Assembly (NCBI GenBank): GCA_947459185.1
Contig: CANHCU010000015.1
Location: 1-47,389 of the forward strand
Direction of reading: 5' to 3'
From: Planctomycetaceae bacterium
GTDB taxonomy: Bacteria > Planctomycetota > Planctomycetia > Pirellulales > UBA1268
DNA: 47,389 nucleotides
Shown here: in pieces, positions 4,413 through 14,274 of the stretch
Position numbering within the stretch: the stretch's first letter is position 1
Layout of the letters: each line of letters begins with the position of its first letter
Made by a program: the position numbers and the translations under genes
The notes under the pieces: model-generated
What the model was told of the DNA's origin: nothing
The model's database searches: none
What the model saw: only the letters and a program-made list of their open reading frames with translations

Positions 4413-5873
4413 TCAACGTCCCTGTGGTAAATCCTGCAAATCCCGGTCCGCTCCCGCCGCGGACACGCCGAGCAGACGGCCCGTGGCCCGGTCGAGGGCC
4501 CGGACCAGAGGATCGGGCCAGAGGCCCAGGAGAAACAGCACTGCCAGGAGGATCGTCAACGCCAGCCGTTCGCGCGGCAGGATGGCGTGCCGGATGCCTT
4601 CGGATTCGACCGGTCCGCCAAACACATGAAACCAGCCACGCATCATGGCGATGCCGGAGAGAACGGTCGCCAGGATCACGAGCAGACCGGCGTGCAACTG
4701 CTCATCGAGGCTGCCCGACACGATCAGGTCGTCGGCCACGAACGAGAGCGTGCCGGGAAGGCCGATGCCGGCCAGTCCGAAGAGCAGGAAAAACGCCGCC
4801 AGGGCGGGTGCGTCCCAGAACCGTCCCTGGGGCGTGTCGAGCCGGATCACTCCCGCGCGGCTCTCGAGCGCCCATGACACCAGGCCGATGCCGGTCAGGG
4901 CCAGGCCACTGGAGATCCACACACAGAAGGCGCCGTTGAGCTCCATCGGGAGCGTGCCGGCGAGGCCCGCGAGCACCATCGCCGACTGGCTCATCGCCAG
5001 CGTGCCGATGAGCGATCGCAGGTCGCGTTGCACGATCGCGAGAGCCGCACCGTAAGTCGCCGTGACGAGCGCCAGTTGCGAGAGCACGACCAGTTCGGCG
5101 GCCACTCCCTCCGGATGGTCAACGTGGCCGATGAGCAGCCGCACGGCGGTGTAGGAAGCCACCTGCGGCATCGTGGCCGCGAGTGCCGTGGACATGGTCG
5201 CGCCGGAGAAGAGCGCGGGATACCAAGAGTGAAACGGAAAGATTCCCTTGCGGACCATGACAGCGATCGCCACCAGCCAGCCCCCCGCCGAGCCCACCCA
5301 GCCGGCGGCGGCGGCCCAGGGCGGATCGATGATCAGGAGCACCGTGCCGATCGTCATGCAGATCACCGCCGTGGACATCGCGATGGCAAACACGCGGGCG
5401 GCCGCATAGCCTCCCGGCGTGCTCCGCACGGAGATCCAGGTGGGCAGCGCCGTCGCACACCAGAGCGCGACCAACAGCAGCGGATGCGATGTGAGAAACA
5501 GGGCGAAGGTGGCGGCTGCGCCGAAGAGAAGGCGAGCCACGGCCGACGGCTCGAGCGCCCGCCGCGGCGCCACGAGCAGGATCGCCATTTCCACCAACGC
5601 CACGTAGGGGAGCAGCACGGCGGTGATGCCGTCGATGCAGACGAACCGCCCGCCACCGAGCCGGTCACCGAACAGCCGAGGAGCACCGTCGGTCTGGCTC
5701 CAGAGCGTTGTGACGGCCAGGCTGGCCAGGAGCGACACGAAGGCCATCGCCACCGCAAACGGGCGGGGTTTGCCACGCGTCAGGCCCATCGCAGTGACGG
5801 CGGAGCCGATGAGGGGGGCGGCCACCGTAATCGCAGCCGCGACCAAGAGGCCACGATCGTCGGGTGGGATCAT
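4413..5873 (-). CDS. NuoM/MrpD-like proton-translocating antiporter-type membrane subunit (second DabB/MpsA-like subunit)
   Basis: About 14 hydrophobic segments; antiporter motif MVRKGIFPFHSWYPALFSGATMSTALAATMPQVASYTAVRLL; ATGA overlap with the upstream gene. Confidence 0.8.
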   Translation of the reverse strand: MIPPDDRGLLVAAAITVAAPLIGSAVTAMGLTRGKPRPFAVAMAFVSLLASLAVTTLWSQTDGAPRLFGDRLGGGRFVCIDGITAVLLPYVALVEMAILLVAPRRALEPSAVARLLFGAAATFALFLTSHPLLLVALWCATALPTWISVRSTPGGYAAARVFAIAMSTAVICMTIGTVLLIIDPPWAAAAGWVGSAGGWLVAIAVMVRKGIFPFHSWYPALFSGATMSTALAATMPQVASYTAVRLLIGHVDHPEGVAAELVVLSQLALVTATYGAALAIVQRDLRSLIGTLAMSQSAMVLAGLAGTLPMELNGAFCVWISSGLALTGIGLVSWALESRAGVIRLDTPQGRFWDAPALAAFFLLFGLAGIGLPGTLSFVADDLIVSGSLDEQLHAGLLVILATVLSGIAMMRGWFHVFGGPVESEGIRHAILPRERLALTILLAVLFLLGLWPDPLVRALDRATGRLLGVSAAGADRDLQDLPQGR

Positions 5874-7219
5874 GAGCGGCCTCCGCCCGGGCCCGCATCG
5901 CCCCCCAGGAAGACGAGCCAGCGACGCTCGAGGTCGGCGGCACATTCGAGCAGCCAGAGGACCGGCACGATGAATAGCCGGCCCACCACCATCTCCTCGA
6001 AACCACGGTCAAGGGCGATGCGATAGATCCGTGACTGGAGTCCCTCCGGGAGCAGCCGGCCAAGCGCCCACCGATCGGCGCCAGGATGCCCACCGAGTGC
6101 CGCTTCCAGTTCGTGGCGGTCATGCAGGGCCGACGGCGACCGGAGGATCTGCAGGCTGCGGAGGATCGCATGGCTGATGACATGCACCAGCGGAATCACC
6201 CGCCAGCCAAAGCCGATCTCCGCGAAGATTAGTCCAGACTGCGTCATCGCGGCATAGGCGAGCATGCTCTTCAAGTCGGTCTGCACGCGGCCCACCACGT
6301 TGGCATGGAGGGCCGTGCCCAGACCGATCGCGATCAGCAGCAGCCGGGCCAGAGGCGCCTGGTCGAGCAACGCCTCGCAGCGGAGCAGCACGTAGGCACC
6401 GGCATGGATCGAGAGGGCACCGTAGAAGATGGCGCTCGACGGCGTCGGCCCCTCCATCGCCTGCGGCAGCCAGCCCGAGAAGGGCACCTGCGCGCTCTTT
6501 CCCATCGACGCAAAGACAAGCAGGAGCGACACGATCGTGGCCGTGGCCGCCGGCACGAGGCAGGTGCCATTGGGCCAGTTCTCGCCGAAGAGCCGATCGA
6601 AATCACCCGACCCGACCGCGCGGTGCACCATAACGGCCGCGGCGAGTAGACCGACGTCGCAGACCCGATAGGTCGCGAAGGCCCGCATGGCCGCCCGCAC
6701 CGCGTTGCCGCGTTCGAGGAAGAATCCGATCAGCAGCGTGGACGAGATGCCAAGCAGCTCCCAGCCGGCAAACAGCACGTCGATACTGCCCGCCAGCACC
6801 ATCAGATTCATGCCGGTGCCAAACACCGCCAACAGCAGGAAGAATCGCGTGAACCCCGGCTCACGATGAAGATATTTTCTCGCGAAGGCGTTGACGAGGC
6901 CGCACAGGCCGGTCGAGAAGCAGACGTAGGGCACGGAGAGCGCATCGGCCACGAGTTCGACGGTGGCTTCGTGGTGCCCCACCGAGAACCACGACCCAAG
7001 ATGAACAATCTCCGGGACGAAGCCACGCGCGACGAGCGAGGCGAGCGTGAGCAGGCCGGCGATGAAGCCGATAGCAAAACCGGCCCCGACGATGCGGGAC
7101 GTGGCCCGTTCTGACGGCGGCCGGCCGAGCAGTGCGGGCACACCCACGAGTGCCACCGTGGCCGCCGGGGCGGCGAGCTGACAGGTGACGAGCAGCGAGA
7201 CGATGTCGTGATTCGTCAT
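5870..7219 (-). CDS. dabB: NuoL-like subunit, probable inorganic carbon transporter subunit DabB (MpsA-like)
   Basis: LFAGWELLGISSTLLIGFF; GKSAQVPFSGWLPQAMEGPTPSSAIFYGALSIHAGAYVLLR; TDLKSMLAYAAMTQSGLIFAEIGFG; ATGA overlap with dabA. Confidence 0.85.
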   Translation of the reverse strand: MTNHDIVSLLVTCQLAAPAATVALVGVPALLGRPPSERATSRIVGAGFAIGFIAGLLTLASLVARGFVPEIVHLGSWFSVGHHEATVELVADALSVPYVCFSTGLCGLVNAFARKYLHREPGFTRFFLLLAVFGTGMNLMVLAGSIDVLFAGWELLGISSTLLIGFFLERGNAVRAAMRAFATYRVCDVGLLAAAVMVHRAVGSGDFDRLFGENWPNGTCLVPAATATIVSLLLVFASMGKSAQVPFSGWLPQAMEGPTPSSAIFYGALSIHAGAYVLLRCEALLDQAPLARLLLIAIGLGTALHANVVGRVQTDLKSMLAYAAMTQSGLIFAEIGFGWRVIPLVHVISHAILRSLQILRSPSALHDRHELEAALGGHPGADRWALGRLLPEGLQSRIYRIALDRGFEEMVVGRLFIVPVLWLLECAADLERRWLVFLGGDAGPGGGRS

Positions 7220-10200
7220 GCGCGGTGACTTCCAGCCGGGAAGGCCCGCTTGGGGAGCGCCGCCAGAACGCGGGCAGGGGCGAGGTGATCGCGCCGGCCC
7301 GCGTACCACGACACGGAGCGGTCCACCACCGGAATGTCGTTCAGTTCCGGCACATAGGGCACGAATGTACCGCGGTCATAGACCGCCAACGCCCCCGTCT
7401 GCGGATCCCATGACACCAGATGGACCCAATGATTCTCGACCAGCTGTCTCACTTCAGCCAGCGGCGCCACGGCAGCGACGATCTGCTCCGGCGTGGCGTC
7501 GATCACGACGAGCAGTCGCAGCGGCTCGTGGATCTCGACCGTCTGCCACGGCAGCCCGGTCCGCAGGTCGCTGGCCTGGCCGTCCATCACGCCGATCAGG
7601 CCCGTGATGTTGTGCGGGAGCTTCGTGTTACAGCCGTAGCCGAGCCGATCGACCGCCGAGAAGAAGTAGGCGAGATTGATCCCTGAGGCCACCGGCCCCA
7701 CGGCCGCGAGCGTTCGTGTGAGAATTGCCGAGTCGTCGTCCTCGGTCGGATCGTAGGAAACGAGAAACGCCCGGCGATCGAGAAACAGCCCGCGGGTCCG
7801 CGAACGCCGGCCGATGATGGCGGCGGCATTCGTGGCATGGCCGAGTTCCGGCCGGACCTGCGCGAGGTCCACCGATCTCGCCTCCACATGCTCGCTCGCT
7901 TCCCGGGGCGTGAGGTCGAGCGGAGCCGATTCGAACCGCCGGCACCGTTCGTGCGCGTCGGCGACGCAGGCTTGCTCACAGGCCCGCCGCAGCACGTCGG
8001 CATCACGATGATGGCTCTCGGGCAGCCGGTCCGCGTCGAACCAGGTGACCGTGTCGGCGCAGGTGTCGAGAATTCCGCCGATGAATCGGGTGTCGTCGGG
8101 GATAGGCAGCCCTTCCTCGGCCAGGTGGCCCCGCACGCGGGGGTCGTTGGCCATCATCGCGAAGGCGCGGGCATTGGCGCCGCCAGGTCCACCCCCACAG
8201 GCCCCACAGTCGTAGGCGCTTTCGTGGGGGTTATTGAGGCTCGAGGAGCCGTGCCCGATCACGGCGACCAGCCGGGAAAAACCGCTGGTGAGGCCGATGT
8301 CTTCGAGCACGCGGCGAACGATCCCGACCATCTCGGTGACGTCGAAGCCGGCGTGGGTACCGTCCGGCAGAAAGTCTTCCCCTTCTCGTTCCAGCGCCAA
8401 CCGGGTGATCACCCTGCGGCGTGTGAGTTCGGAGGCGGTCTTGCCCAGCCGGGCCGAGAGCCGCGGAAAAGCGACGCGGGCCACCAGTGGCACGGCCGCC
8501 ACCGCCCCCGCAAACGCCGTGAACAGCCCGCCGCGAAGGAGCGTGCGACTGCCGGTCGAAACACCGCCGGCAAACTGCCCCACCCGCCGCCGGAGGCTGC
8601 GATGAAACTCATGGAGCGAACGCGCGTCATCGACCGGCAACTCGACGACGGTGTGCCTGGGCCGCATCACGATCGGGCACAATGGCGCCGCATGCCAATC
8701 GTCGATGCCGCGATAGTACATCGGCACGCCAAAGAATCCGGCGGTGCCAAAGGTCTCAAAGCCGGGCCCAAGCTCCTCGAAGTGCCGTCGGAACGACTCG
8801 CACCGCTCGTCCATGCAGAACACCGTTTGAAAGAGCGGTCGCGTCTCAGCCGACGGCGTGGCGAAACGGACATGCGAGGCCAACGCGTCGAGCAACTGGA
8901 TCTGATAGCGCCGCTCGTAGGCACGGTGGAAGAGCCGCCGCCGCGAGAAGTCGTCGAAGGCCAAAATGGCGTGCTCGAACCGGAGCAGTTCGTTCTCGTC
9001 GAGGCTGCGGATATCGTGGGCCGTGAGTCCCAGCAACTGCGACACCTGGTGCAGCAAAAAGGCCCGCGCCAGGCTGCCAGGCCCCCGCGTGGGCGGATAG
9101 TGGTCGCGGAGCTCCGTCCAGAGATCGCGGAGGCGGCCGTTGGGCGGCAGGGCGGAGGGGCCGCCGGCCCCGTTGGTCCTGAAGCCGATTTGCCGCGACG
9201 CCCATTCCGCGGCCACGCGATCGCAGACAAGCCGCAGGGCGACGAAGTCGATGAGCCTCGCGGGCACCGGCTCGACAGGCGCACGGTCGGGGCGTTCCTC
9301 GAGATGGCGGATCATCCCGGCCCACCCCCGCAAGGCCAGGCAGGTACGGGTCAGATACTCGTCCCACTCGGCCTCTGGCACGCCAAGCCGGTCGAGTTCC
9401 GCGGCGATCACGTCAACTGCCGGGACGCCGCGGATGAGTCGAAACACCCGCGGAAGGCCTGCGCTCCAGGGGTCCGTCGGGCCGAAGCGGACGGAATAGA
9501 TGCGTGCGACCGCCTCCAGCAGCCCCCGCTCGCGGCCCGGCATCGGCCACGCCGCGACCCCCTGATCCAAAAACGCCGCACAGAATCGGATCAGCAGCGG
9601 ATGGACGAGGGTGTCGGTGTCGAGCGCGGGATCCACCGCCAGCATCAGGTCGCGGTGCCGCACCGGCGGCCTGGTATGGGTGATCGAGGGGCGAGTCAGG
9701 GCGACCGCCTCGACGCAGGCATGCCAGAGTTCGCTCGACGTCCGCCGTTCATCATCGAACTGGCCAACCTCGGGACTCAGGGAAAACGTTGCCCGCCGCG
9801 CAGCCTCGTCATCGACGTCGGGCAATGCCGCATCGGCGTCATCCGTGGCAGCGTCAACGCCGCCGCTGAGGATCCGCCAGCGTGCCTCGGGGCTCAAATC
9901 GTCGCGGAGGCGGTCGACGACGTCCTTTTCCGTGAGCGTCCAACGGACGGCGGCATCGTTCTCCTGACGCACGGGATGCAGCAGCAGCGCCATCCGCAGG
10001 TCGCGCATCGAGAGTCTTCCGTTGGCGAGCAGTTCGCCGGCGTCGCTACGCGTGTCGCCATCGAGAACGGCCTCCAGATCGGCGGCCCGAATGCGTCCGC
10101 GGGCGAGTTCCTCCCGGTACCGTGCCTCCGACAGATAGGGCTGGGTGCCGAACAGACTGGCCGCATGCACCACGGCGTCTTCGAACGGCTCACACTCGAA

Positions 10201-10377
10201 GGCCTGGAGCGCGTTTTGGGCGATGAACACACCGATGGGGCCCTGCGTCGGCAGGAATCTCGCCGCAGACTCAATGGCCGCCCTGATCGATTCCGTCCGG
10301 CGTGCCTGGGCTGCGTCCAGCGGGGCGGCCGTCGCGGAGTCGGGGGGCTCTCGGTGGTGGGTCATGCTGGCAGTCAA
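7216..10377 (-). CDS. dabA: Probable inorganic carbon transporter subunit DabA (DUF2309/UPF0753; MpsB-like)
   Basis: 1053 aa; putative Zn/beta-CA-like residues in [19 protein letters not shown] (C,D), [37 protein letters not shown] (H,C). Confidence 0.93.
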   Translation of the reverse strand: [1053 protein letters not shown]

Positions 10378-10563
10378 CGGGCGGGAGCGCCGCGGAAACC
10401 GTGCGGCGCCGCTTCCAGCCTATCGCGAAGCTTGCAACGGCACTGAGTCGTCCCCTTATTTAGTCCTTGCAATGCCGAAAGCCGCTCCGTGGCCAGTTCC
10501 GAGTGCGACTGGCGGCGGTGGCTGGGACCTGATGGTGGGACCTGACAATGGAGAGGAACCGGC

Positions 10564-10977
10564 TTATCTCCGGCGGCGGTCGGCAGTGCCGCCTCGACAG
10601 CGGCACTGCGGTGCCGCTGCGAGCGTGAAGACGAGCACTTCCTCTCCCGTGGTCGGGCTGATGTCGTGATGCACGCTTACGGGCTGGGAACCGGTGGCAT
10701 TGCGAACGAGCGTGTCGAGCATGGTCTTGCCGGCAAGCACGAGATGGCTGCGGAGTTGCTTGAGCAGTTCCGCCCCCCGGCCGTTCCCGTTGCCGTGCGC
10801 ATCCATGAGCCGTTGCTCCGCCGCCGTCAGCACTCCCTCCAAGTGAACAAACAGCTTGTTGTCGATGAGGTGGGTATGCACGTGCCGGGGGCCACGGCCC
10901 ATGTATTCCTGCTGAAACCGCGCCACGGCATCGCAGACCGCAGCCTCAATCTCGCCCTGCGATTTTAAAGGGTCCAT
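10564..10977 (-). CDS. MpsC/DUF2294 family protein (paralogue 1)
   Basis: MDPLKSQGEIEAAVCDAVARFQQEYMGRGPRHVHTHLIDNKLFVHLEGVLTAAEQRLM...SVHHDISPTTGEEVLVFTL; near-identical architecture to 12362..12802. Confidence 0.8.
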   Translation of the reverse strand: MDPLKSQGEIEAAVCDAVARFQQEYMGRGPRHVHTHLIDNKLFVHLEGVLTAAEQRLMDAHGNGNGRGAELLKQLRSHLVLAGKTMLDTLVRNATGSQPVSVHHDISPTTGEEVLVFTLAAAPQCRCRGGTADRRRR

Positions 10978-11020: not shown

Positions 11021-11252
11021 ATTGCCTGCGTGAGAGTTGGCTTCGGCAGGAGTCGTCGGAGCCAATGAGTCAAACCGCACAGATACAGATAGGGAGGATG
11101 GCGAACGCGGTCCGCGGCAGACTGCCTTGTGCCGGCAACACCACTCGTAGCGCAAACACATTCCAAAGGACACGCAGACGCCACAAAGCACGCAGTTAAC
11201 GCATATTACGCAGCCCTCTTGCATTCGCTAGAACACCACCTACATTACGGGG

Positions 11253-11418
11253 GACGGACGGCCGGTTGCGATTCCGAATCGCGATGGAAGTTCGGCACGA
11301 CAGAATGTGAACGGAAGACGAGTCGAGGGGCATCCCAGCCTTGATCTGGGCGGCCCATCGCAGCGTAAGCCGGCGAGAAAGAGAGCCTTCGGGCCCTCCT
11401 TCTTGCCGGCTTTTTTTG
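11253..11418 (+). ncRNA. Candidate terminated leader RNA / sRNA upstream of the mpsC-csrA-mpsC group
   Basis: No credible + strand ORF; weak promoter-like TTGCAT-16-TACATT at 11219-11246; hairpin GCGATTccgAATCGC (11268-11282); three ANGGA motifs (11254, 11284, 11311); ends in a strong intrinsic terminator. Confidence 0.35.
11367..11418 (+). terminator. Rho-independent terminator/attenuator 5' of mpsC-like gene 2
   Basis: AAGCCGGCGAGAAAGAGAGCCTTCGGGCCCTCCTTCTTGCCGGCTTTTTTTG: long GC-rich stem followed by 7 T. Confidence 0.85.
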
Positions 11419-11525
11419 TTTTTCCACTCTGGTTTTCCCTTCGTTTTCCCAGGGCAAGTCTCGGTTCGCGACACACACACTCTCTCTGTCGCGGCCTCAA
11501 CCGCAAGCAGCAGGAGAACACCTCG

Positions 11526-11978
11526 ATGAAGAAACAGTTCGACGAACGAGTGGCAAGGCAGGTGGCGCAGGCGGCGGGCTCTTTCGAACACCTGCTTCTC
11601 GGACGCACGCCCAGGAGCGTGACCGTGGTGGCTGACGGCCGTTGGATGGTGGTCAGCATCCACGAGGCGTTCTCGCCCGTGGAGCGGCGGCTGTCAGCCG
11701 ACGAGGAGGGATTGAGCCGGGTGCAAGACTTCCACCGCTACCTGTTCGACAGCTCGCTCGACTCACTCCGCAACCATGTCCGCAGGAGCACGGGAGTCGA
11801 ACTTCGTGGCGCGATCGCGCACGTCGATGCGTCCACTGGCAGCGTGCTCAAAACATTCACGACCAATCCCGCCGTGGAGCTTTTCCTGCTCGGTCAGGGA
11901 CTGCCGACGCTGGGCGTACCGGTGAACGACCATCTGCATTCCAACGGAGCGAACGGCAATGGAGCCGTCCGCAACTGA
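11526..11978 (+). CDS. MpsC/DUF2294-like protein, divergent (paralogue 2)
   Basis: MKKQFDERVARQVAQAAGSFEHLLLGRTPRSVTVVADGRWMVVSIHEAFSPVERRLSADEEG...; RBS-like aggag upstream; same approximate domain order as the flanking paralogues. Confidence 0.65.
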   Translation: MKKQFDERVARQVAQAAGSFEHLLLGRTPRSVTVVADGRWMVVSIHEAFSPVERRLSADEEGLSRVQDFHRYLFDSSLDSLRNHVRRSTGVELRGAIAHVDASTGSVLKTFTTNPAVELFLLGQGLPTLGVPVNDHLHSNGANGNGAVRN

Positions 11979-12018: not shown

Positions 12019-12267
12019 ATGTTGGTACTAACGAGGAAGAATCGCGAGAGCGTGGTGATCGGACGGGCTGAGGATCTCGAGGTGGTTCTTGAGATCACGA
12101 TCCTGGAGATCGAAGGGGGCCGCGTGCGGCTCGGATTCGAGGCCGACACCAGGATGCCGATCCATCGCCGCGAGGTCTGGGACCGGATCCGCAACGGCGA
12201 GGCCGGCCCGAATGGGAATGGGAATGGGAATGGGAACACGCGGTCGGGTCGCACGGCTGCGTCCTGA
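12019..12267 (+). CDS. csrA: Carbon storage regulator CsrA with Gly-Asn-rich C-terminal tail
   Basis: MLVLTRKNRESVVIGRAEDLEVVLEITILEIEGGRVRLGFEADTRMPIHRREVWDRI; tail GPNGNGNGNGNTRSGRTAAS. Confidence 0.93.
   Translation: MLVLTRKNRESVVIGRAEDLEVVLEITILEIEGGRVRLGFEADTRMPIHRREVWDRIRNGEAGPNGNGNGNGNTRSGRTAAS
12210..12237 (+). repeat. 6-bp microsatellite (AATGGG/GAATGG)n in the csrA 3' end
   Basis: aatgggaatgggaatgggaatgggaac encodes NGNGNGNGN. Confidence 0.85.
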
Positions 12268-12361: not shown

Positions 12362-12802
12362 ATGAAATCTCAGGGCGAAATCGAGGCGGCCGTCTGCGAC
12401 GGCATCTCGCGATTCCAGCAAGAGTTTCTCGGCAGAGGGCCGCGGGACATTCATGCTCACCTGATCGGATCGCTGCTGGTCGTGCGACTGCAGGGAGTGC
12501 TGACCCCCGCCGAGCGGCAGTTGCTCGCACCGCGTCATGATTCCGTTGCCGGCACTGCCGGTGGCGAGAACCGCGACGACACGACCAACGGGTATGAAAC
12601 CGGCAATGGAAGGGCCCTGCTCAAGCAGGTGCGGACCCACATGGTGGCCAACGGCCGCCCGCGGCTGGAGTCGATCGTGGAGGAGGCCGTGGGCGTGAAG
12701 CTCGTCAGCGTGCACCACGACATTTCCACGGTGACAGGCGAGGAAGTTCTCGTGTTTTCCCTCGTCGAGCCCCCCGCCTGCCGGCCCAAGAAAAAAGCCT
12801 GA
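12362..12802 (+). CDS. MpsC/DUF2294 family protein (paralogue 3)
   Basis: MKSQGEIEAAVCDGISRFQQEFLGRGPRDIHAHLIGSLLVVRLQGVLTPAERQLL...SVHHDISTVTGEEVLVFSLVEPP; aligns closely with 10564..10977. Confidence 0.82.
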   Translation: MKSQGEIEAAVCDGISRFQQEFLGRGPRDIHAHLIGSLLVVRLQGVLTPAERQLLAPRHDSVAGTAGGENRDDTTNGYETGNGRALLKQVRTHMVANGRPRLESIVEEAVGVKLVSVHHDISTVTGEEVLVFSLVEPPACRPKKKA

Positions 12803-12830: not shown

Positions 12831-12859
12831 AAACCAACAAGGGTGGGCGTGCTGTCATC

Positions 12860-13000
12860 CGCTTTCCCTTGCTTGCGCTGCGGGCTTGGATGGACACGCG
12901 ATTCCCATGCAAGCCCGAAGCGCAAGCGAGAGGAATCCGCGTCCCAGCCTGTATGGCTACCAGCATTCCCTTGCTTGCGCTGTGGGCTTGGATGGAGGGG
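12860..13000. repeat. Dispersed intergenic repeat 'TTCCCTTGCTTGCGCTGYGGGCTTGGATGGA': two direct copies and one inverted copy
   Basis: ttgcttgcgctgcgggcttggatgga (~12867), ttgcttgcgctgtgggcttggatgga (~12969), inverted aagcccgaagcgcaagcgagagga (~12911). Confidence 0.8.
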
Positions 13001-13080: not shown

Positions 13081-14274
13081 GTGGACCCCGCCGCCCCGAA
13101 AAACCCGATATCACGCGGCACGACGGTGCTGCTCGTCGACGACCAGCCGATCATCGGCGAAGCCGTCCGCCGCATGCTCGCCGGCGAAGACGGCATCGCC
13201 TTCCACTTCTGCCGCGATCCCACCATCGCCCTCGAGGTCGCAGCCACGGTCGAGCCGACCGTAATCCTGCAGGATCTCGTGATGCCCAACATCGAGGGGC
13301 TCGAACTTGTGAGGCGTTTTCGCGCCGACGAGCGGTTCCGTGACGTGCCGATCATCGTGCTCTCCACGAAGGAGGAAGCGGCCGTGAAGGCCGAGGCCTT
13401 CGCGGTTGGGGCGAATGACTACGTTGTCAAACTCCCTGACCGGCTCGAACTGCTGGCACGCCTTCGCTATCACTCCCGCGGCTACATCGCCCTGCTGGAA
13501 CGGAACGAAGCCTTTTTGGCGCTCCAAGCCAGCCGCGAGGTGCTCGCCAACGACCTCGCCACGGCGGCTCAGTATGTGCGGTCGCTGCTCCCTCCGCCGC
13601 AGCGCATCGGGCCGATCACCGCAGACTGGCGGTTCATCCCGTCGGCGGCACTCGGGGGCGACGCCTTCGGGTATCACAGCCTCGACGACGACCACATCGC
13701 CGTCTACCTGCTGGATGTCTGCGGGCATGGGGTGGGGGCGGCACTCCTGAGCGTGTCGGCGTTGAATTCGATCCGCAGCGAGGCCCTGCCGCAGACCGAC
13801 TTTCACGACCCCGGCAGCGTGCTGGCGGCGCTCAACAAAGCGTTTCCGATGGAGCGTCAAAACGATATGTTTTTCACGATCTGGTACGGCGTCTACCGGG
13901 TCGCGTCGCGAACCCTTCGCTGGGCCGGGGGGGGCCATCCGGCGGCATTGCTGCTGCCGCCAGGCGGTGGCAGCCAGCCCACGTTTCTCGAGTCGGACGG
14001 ACCGCTCATCGGCGCGGTGGAAGGTCTGGAATTCGCCTCCGGCGAGGCTACCGTGCCCGCCGGCAGTAGCCTGCTTGTTTACAGCGACGGCGCCTTCGAG
14101 GTGAGCTACCCAGACGGGGCGATGTGGCCCTTTGCCGACTTCGTCACAACACTTACCACCCCCCCTGCAGAGAGCGTCCGTCGTCTGGACGCCTTGGTTG
14201 CCAGAATTCGGACGATTTCAGCCCGGGATGACTTCAACGACGATTTCTCGATGGTGGAACTCGAGTTTTCATGA
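13081..14274 (+). CDS. Response regulator receiver + PP2C-type (RsbU/SpoIIE) serine phosphatase
   Basis: Receiver VLLVDDQPIIGEAVRR...VILQDLVMPNIEG...VLSTK...YVVKLPD; phosphatase ALGGDAFGYHSLDDDHIAVYLLDVCGHGVGAALLS...YSDGAFEV...DDFSMVELEF; likely GTG start at 13081. Confidence 0.88.
   Translation: MDPAAPKNPISRGTTVLLVDDQPIIGEAVRRMLAGEDGIAFHFCRDPTIALEVAATVEPTVILQDLVMPNIEGLELVRRFRADERFRDVPIIVLSTKEEAAVKAEAFAVGANDYVVKLPDRLELLARLRYHSRGYIALLERNEAFLALQASREVLANDLATAAQYVRSLLPPPQRIGPITADWRFIPSAALGGDAFGYHSLDDDHIAVYLLDVCGHGVGAALLSVSALNSIRSEALPQTDFHDPGSVLAALNKAFPMERQNDMFFTIWYGVYRVASRTLRWAGGGHPAALLLPPGGGSQPTFLESDGPLIGAVEGLEFASGEATVPAGSSLLVYSDGAFEVSYPDGAMWPFADFVTTLTTPPAESVRRLDALVARIRTISARDDFNDDFSMVELEFS

Follow-up and report, generated by a model that had tools for sequence, protein, structure and literature searches.

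BglG/LicT RAT antiterminators are imperfect hairpins with internal loops, the foot of which shares bases with the 5' arm of a terminator. Compared at the level of architecture, the planctomycete RNA described here appears to have the same hairpin layout, although its hairpin is much longer and the downstream genes are not those of a sugar PTS. Terminator-embedded riboswitches such as the HMP-PP riboswitch (thiS motif; PMC6478431) are similar in that a conserved structured element of the 5' leader overlaps or abuts an intrinsic terminator. They differ in that the planctomycete RNA has no Rfam match and is associated with stress and surface genes rather than with one metabolic pathway. The CsrB/CsrC/RsmX-Y-Z sponges share with it the general description of a terminated RNA near csrA that contains GGA, whereas the planctomycete RNA shows no GGA enrichment, occupies a leader position and mostly has one conserved GGA. 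A further candidate is the Rhodopirellula-1 motif, listed in Table 1 of Weinberg 2010 (PMC2864571) as probably cis-regulatory, found in Planctomycetes and Proteobacteria and without an Rfam number. According to that table entry, it is likewise a candidate cis-regulatory RNA from Planctomycetes, but it is rated ambiguous as an RNA and reported from Proteobacteria too. Going by this description only, our RNA may be the Rhodopirellula-1 motif.

Terminator leaders as such are thus already known, but the RNA family is uncatalogued in Rfam, where we found no relevant match either at the gathering threshold or at E<=10, and hence no known riboswitch class. Literature searches on planctomycete leaders and on MpsC/DUF2294 with csrA returned nothing relevant, and neither they nor Rfam yielded a characterised cis-acting regulatory RNA of such kind in planctomycetes.

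A conserved structured RNA upstream of mpsC2-csrA-mpsC3

The DNA that we analysed (47,389 nt, hereafter the window) makes up contig C15 in a draft planctomycete genome of 4.1 Mb. Its plus strand carries mpsC2 (11526-11978; MpsC/DUF2294 domain, PF10057, E 9.4e-12; ATG at 11526), csrA (12019-12267; PF02599, E 4.1e-17) and mpsC3 (12362-12802; PF10057, E 1.3e-31). The first gene 3' of the region of interest (11219-11525) is mpsC2, and the gene order is the same in relatives. We consider it probable that this region is the 5' leader of an mpsC2-csrA-mpsC3 operon and a copy of a widespread planctomycete family of cis-regulatory RNAs that act as transcription attenuators.

An earlier note on this DNA had pointed to an intrinsic terminator at 11367 to about 11418, 108 nt 5' of the mpsC2 ATG, with no plus-strand coding gene for it to end. 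Both observations hold: the plus strand has no conserved coding gene ahead of it, and the terminator is real. It consists of a long stem (11367-11412) with a UUCG loop and a T7 tract (11411-11417), followed by GTTTTT, and its fold of -34.9 kcal/mol corresponds to z = -5.05, with none of 200 shuffles equally stable. It was missing from the list of a simple terminator scan, perhaps because the stem is interrupted. The GCGATT/AATCGC hairpin of the same note is present too, as the apical part of a longer 5' hairpin (11255-11294) recognised by folding and by-eye comparison of related leaders, but on its own it is no more stable than expected by chance (z about 0). In related leaders, inspection by eye places a hairpin of different sequence at this position, and the mean folding z of the 5' domain is -1.5 (n=197).

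The most conserved element is a hairpin that the earlier note had not singled out, located 3' of the last GGA and 5' of the terminator. This imperfect hairpin (P1-P4, 11318-11366) abuts the terminator and is conserved in the alignment, with a mean folding z of -2.8 (n=197 copies). In a nucleotide search of 39 relatives, the conserved stretch comprised ~110 nt and reached to the T tract (11311-11421), and the DNA flanking it was conserved only in the closest genome. A structure predicted with RNAalifold was turned into covariance model R1, which matches the window at 11307-11417 with 122 bits, and 61 copies were used to build model R2. In the alignment of these 61 copies, 95.2% of cells are paired over 31 base pairs, 24 of the 31 pairs show compensatory (both-sided) changes, and the covariation score is 0.402 against 0.170 after shuffling; this alignment was fitted to the structure and thus favours it, but the compensatory changes are plain in an unfitted MAFFT alignment too. 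When the partners were slid as a control, pairing dropped to 32-50%. By this covariance analysis in related genomes, which the earlier note had proposed, the ~110 nt ending in the terminator (11307-11417) are a conserved structured RNA, with the kind of covarying domain that riboswitches have.

Distribution and associated genes

Model R1 detected the RNA in 39 of the family's 72 genomes, often with 2-8 copies each; some of the matches counted are weak antisense signals from the palindromic terminator. In several members of the family, this search of 72 genomes detected no copy, which we counted against the idea of an attenuator family. Model R2 detected it across the order (96 of 397 genomes, belonging to 53 of 145 genera), the class (68 of 298 genomes) and the phylum (8 of 294 genomes), with as many as 12 matches in one genome; since the filters were strict, these counts are lower bounds. 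Outside the family of the window's genome, the RNA most often takes the form GUCGGAUGACUAGAUAAAGAGCAACCCGG..CCGGGGGGCUCGUUAACGAGUAAGCCGACGUGG...CCACGUCGGCUUUUUUU. No match to the RNA was found in plasmids. Non-planctomycete matches of the DNA pattern were rejected as chance, none exceeding 14.2 bits with the covariance model; a contig from Phycisphaerae (L128) reached 16.8.

A nucleotide search revealed a second, diverged copy elsewhere in the window's own genome, in which the RNA occurs at three sites overall: in the window, at C2:15060 before another mpsC-csrA pair, and at C79:14881 before a giant surface protein with DUF11 repeats. Among the copies from the nucleotide search with readable flanks, all stand immediately before an mpsC2-csrA unit except for L016, which precedes a giant surface protein. 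In L003, mpsC2 is almost deleted and the RNA is kept, 102 nt before csrA. Within the bacterial family of the window's genome, the copies that are not linked to csrA precede PEP-CTERM/XDD4 exosortase-dependent proteins and giant proteins with an LE-R-LA-type N-terminus. For copies from the order and class, 72 downstream proteins had domain matches, including MpsC (19), BON (8), response regulator (6) and the YflT stress domain (3); PAS/histidine kinase, CsbD, transglycosylase-associated, Hsp20, acetate kinase, KaiC, fasciclin, ice-binding and PEP-CTERM domains were also represented. General stress and biofilms are the contexts in which many of these families are known. Since up to 12 copies per genome stand before stress, csrA and cell-surface genes, one signal may coordinate all of them by means of premature termination.

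Leader position and promoters

To describe the gene context, we used a simple codon-based gene caller at 198 distinct sites. At 160 of 167 sites, the RNA shares its strand with the gene that follows, at a median distance of 76 nt; the sites come from related and therefore not independent genomes but span many genera. In contrast, the upstream gene shows no strand bias (74 same, 92 opposite). In other words, an intrinsic terminator sits in a leader ahead of a co-directional gene, which is the arrangement expected of an attenuator.

In the window, a candidate sigma-70-type promoter can be read directly at 11219-11246, with TTGCAT (11219-11224) and TACATT (11241-11246) separated by 16 nt. The window's own -10 element is weak, and the closest relative has TTGCGT...TATAAT at this place. 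Across 194 leaders, promoter-like hexamers scoring at least 9 of 12 occur upstream of the RNA in 49, compared to 42 of 970 shuffles, and most of these have the -10 element about 45-64 nt before the core. Between terminator and gene, such hexamers (score >=8) are rarer than in shuffles (2/81 vs 34/405), and at 37 sites the called start follows the core by 0-45 nt, which leaves no room for a separate promoter. Moreover, two complete leader RNAs stand in tandem before a single gene at L165:4188-4415 (a gene for an Hsp20-like or secreted small protein) and L173:3060-3449 (a PEP-CTERM gene), as is seen with tandem riboswitches. Taken together, these sequence features suggest that transcription of the downstream genes most likely begins 5' of the RNA and has to pass its terminator.

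The same data bear on whether the family might instead consist of free-standing trans-acting sRNAs, the genes of which lie upstream of stress genes by chance. Promoter-like sequence of its own, the strong terminator, several paralogues per genome and the ~165-nt RNA that termination would release all fit such a view. It is nevertheless improbable given the co-directional next gene, the short gaps devoid of promoter-like sequence and the tandem copies before one gene. At roughly 50 of the 160 co-directional sites, the called start is more than 250 nt away, and some of these copies could be separate RNAs, although heuristic calls may miss short genes or starts. A dual role, as cis leader and trans sRNA, is also possible.

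Candidate antiterminator and switch model

The reading of the region as a transcription attenuator, one of two that the earlier note had offered, is thus favoured by a conserved structured RNA, a built-in terminator and an almost invariable leader position. It is also favoured by a candidate antiterminator, P0, mutually exclusive with the terminator, in which CGG (11312-11314) would pair with CCG (11370-11372), the latter being part of the terminator 5' arm as well. Standard base pairs occur at the three P0 positions in 161, 164 and 164 of 165 copies; in 11 copies a C to U change leaves a wobble pair, and one copy (L074) is compensated. A fourth pair holds in 128 of 165 copies, and in most relatives outside the family P0 is extended to GUCGG/CCGAC. 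The predicted probability of P0 before the terminator 3' arm is made averages 0.80-0.92 in three copy sets and is 0.79 in the window's own copy, falling to about 0 in the full RNA. With the 3' arm absent, the terminator CCG pairs to the first 11 nt with a probability of 0.86, and shuffling this segment lowers the value to 0.41. P0 is a short helix (3-5 bp; in the window's subfamily, 3 bp plus chance extensions), and because its bases are nearly invariant, covariation hardly tests it and cannot prove it. A longer antiterminator involving GGCCGG of the window's 5' hairpin was rejected, since by eye it occurs only in the two closest genomes.

Such a switch may work as follows. Transcription would start near 11253, and the nascent RNA would first fold into an extended imperfect hairpin, the base of which, P0, would borrow the foot of the terminator 5' arm. 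Once the terminator 3' arm emerges, P0 would be displaced, transcription would stop and an RNA of ~165 nt would be released. A bound factor, be it a small molecule or a protein, might use the conserved internal loops (GAWGAC / GUAAG) to stabilise P0-P1 and thereby let polymerase continue into the gene that follows, whether for stress, csrA or a surface protein. The alternative that requires no regulation at all, namely a constitutive terminator or insulator, or a leaky leader, would account for a terminator that is very strong and conserved. For plain termination, however, the strictly conserved hairpin 5' of the terminator and the retained P0 complementarity would be superfluous, and we give this alternative only a slim chance.

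If the attenuator reading is correct, the csrA operon is placed under RNA control. A broader proposal, which we advance tentatively and with somewhat less than even confidence, is that the family represents an orphan class of riboswitch-like (or protein-sensing) RNAs. In a large part of the class Planctomycetia and also beyond it, one terminator/antiterminator switch would then gate a whole regulon of general-stress genes (MpsC, BON, CsbD, YflT, Hsp20), csrA, and surface proteins that are exosortase-sorted or giant. As an orphan candidate switch, the RNA comes with a ready gene list and many natural variants. In one leader subtype, found mostly before PEP-CTERM genes (L069:1967-2000; also L063, L070, L077, L080 and L082), a second hairpin, GCGCCGA...TCGGCGC, lies directly 3' of the terminator and is partially complementary to the terminator 5' arm.

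GGA motifs and CsrA

The second reading in the earlier note was that of a CsrB/RsmZ-like RNA that sponges CsrA, based on three ANGGA motifs at 11254, 11284 and 11311 in an RNA adjoining csrA. The positions are right, but the number of motifs is chance-like and two of the three are not conserved, only the GGA inside 11311-11315 falling within the conserved core. Among 194 leaders, there are 0.58 ANGGA per leader compared to 0.73 in dinucleotide shuffles and 3.1 GGA compared to 3.6 expected; 107 of the 194 have no ANGGA. This absence of enrichment makes a sponge very unlikely, to the point that we assign it next to no probability. Nor does the RNA resemble the separate intergenic unit that a sponge gene would be, as the next gene is nearly always co-directional, the gap lacks promoter-like sequence and many copies precede genes other than csrA.

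A different involvement of CsrA is conceivable, in which CsrA bound to the conserved GGA (11313-11315), overlapping the 5' strand of P0, would block the antiterminator and cause termination, providing negative feedback at csrA. The RNA does precede csrA-containing operons in most type A/B copies, and in L078 and L084 it stands directly before csrA. The GGA itself is present in 177 of 194 copies. Its A, however, is lost in 14 copies while GG is retained (the second G in 190 of 194 copies), a pattern more in line with pairing than with recognition by CsrA. There is also just this single conserved site, with ANGGA not enriched, and many copies lie before genes unrelated to csrA. The presence of csrA in all 397 genomes of the order would allow for such regulation, but it extends to genomes without the RNA and makes the co-occurrence of the two uninformative. 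On balance, a CsrA-responsive attenuator seems rather unlikely, though CsrA may regulate the switch, more so where the RNA precedes csrA.

Several features of the neighbourhood are worth pointing out. The CsrA C-terminus has a low-complexity GNGNGN tail (12204-12240), encoded by GGGAAT repeats and much longer in L003. After mpsC3, positions 12840-12995 contain a REP-like palindromic repeat made of repeated CTTGCTTGCGCTGCGGGCTTGGATGG and its inverse CAAGCCCGAAGCGCAAGCGAG. Further on lies a gene for a response-regulator/SpoIIE phosphatase (RsbU-like, 13081-14274), and its position is kept in several relatives, hinting that the csrA operon is part of a stress-signalling unit. On the minus strand (5870-10977), divergent from the leader, a DabA gene and an NADH-dehydrogenase-like gene, together a DabAB-type carbon transporter pair, are located downstream of mpsC1.
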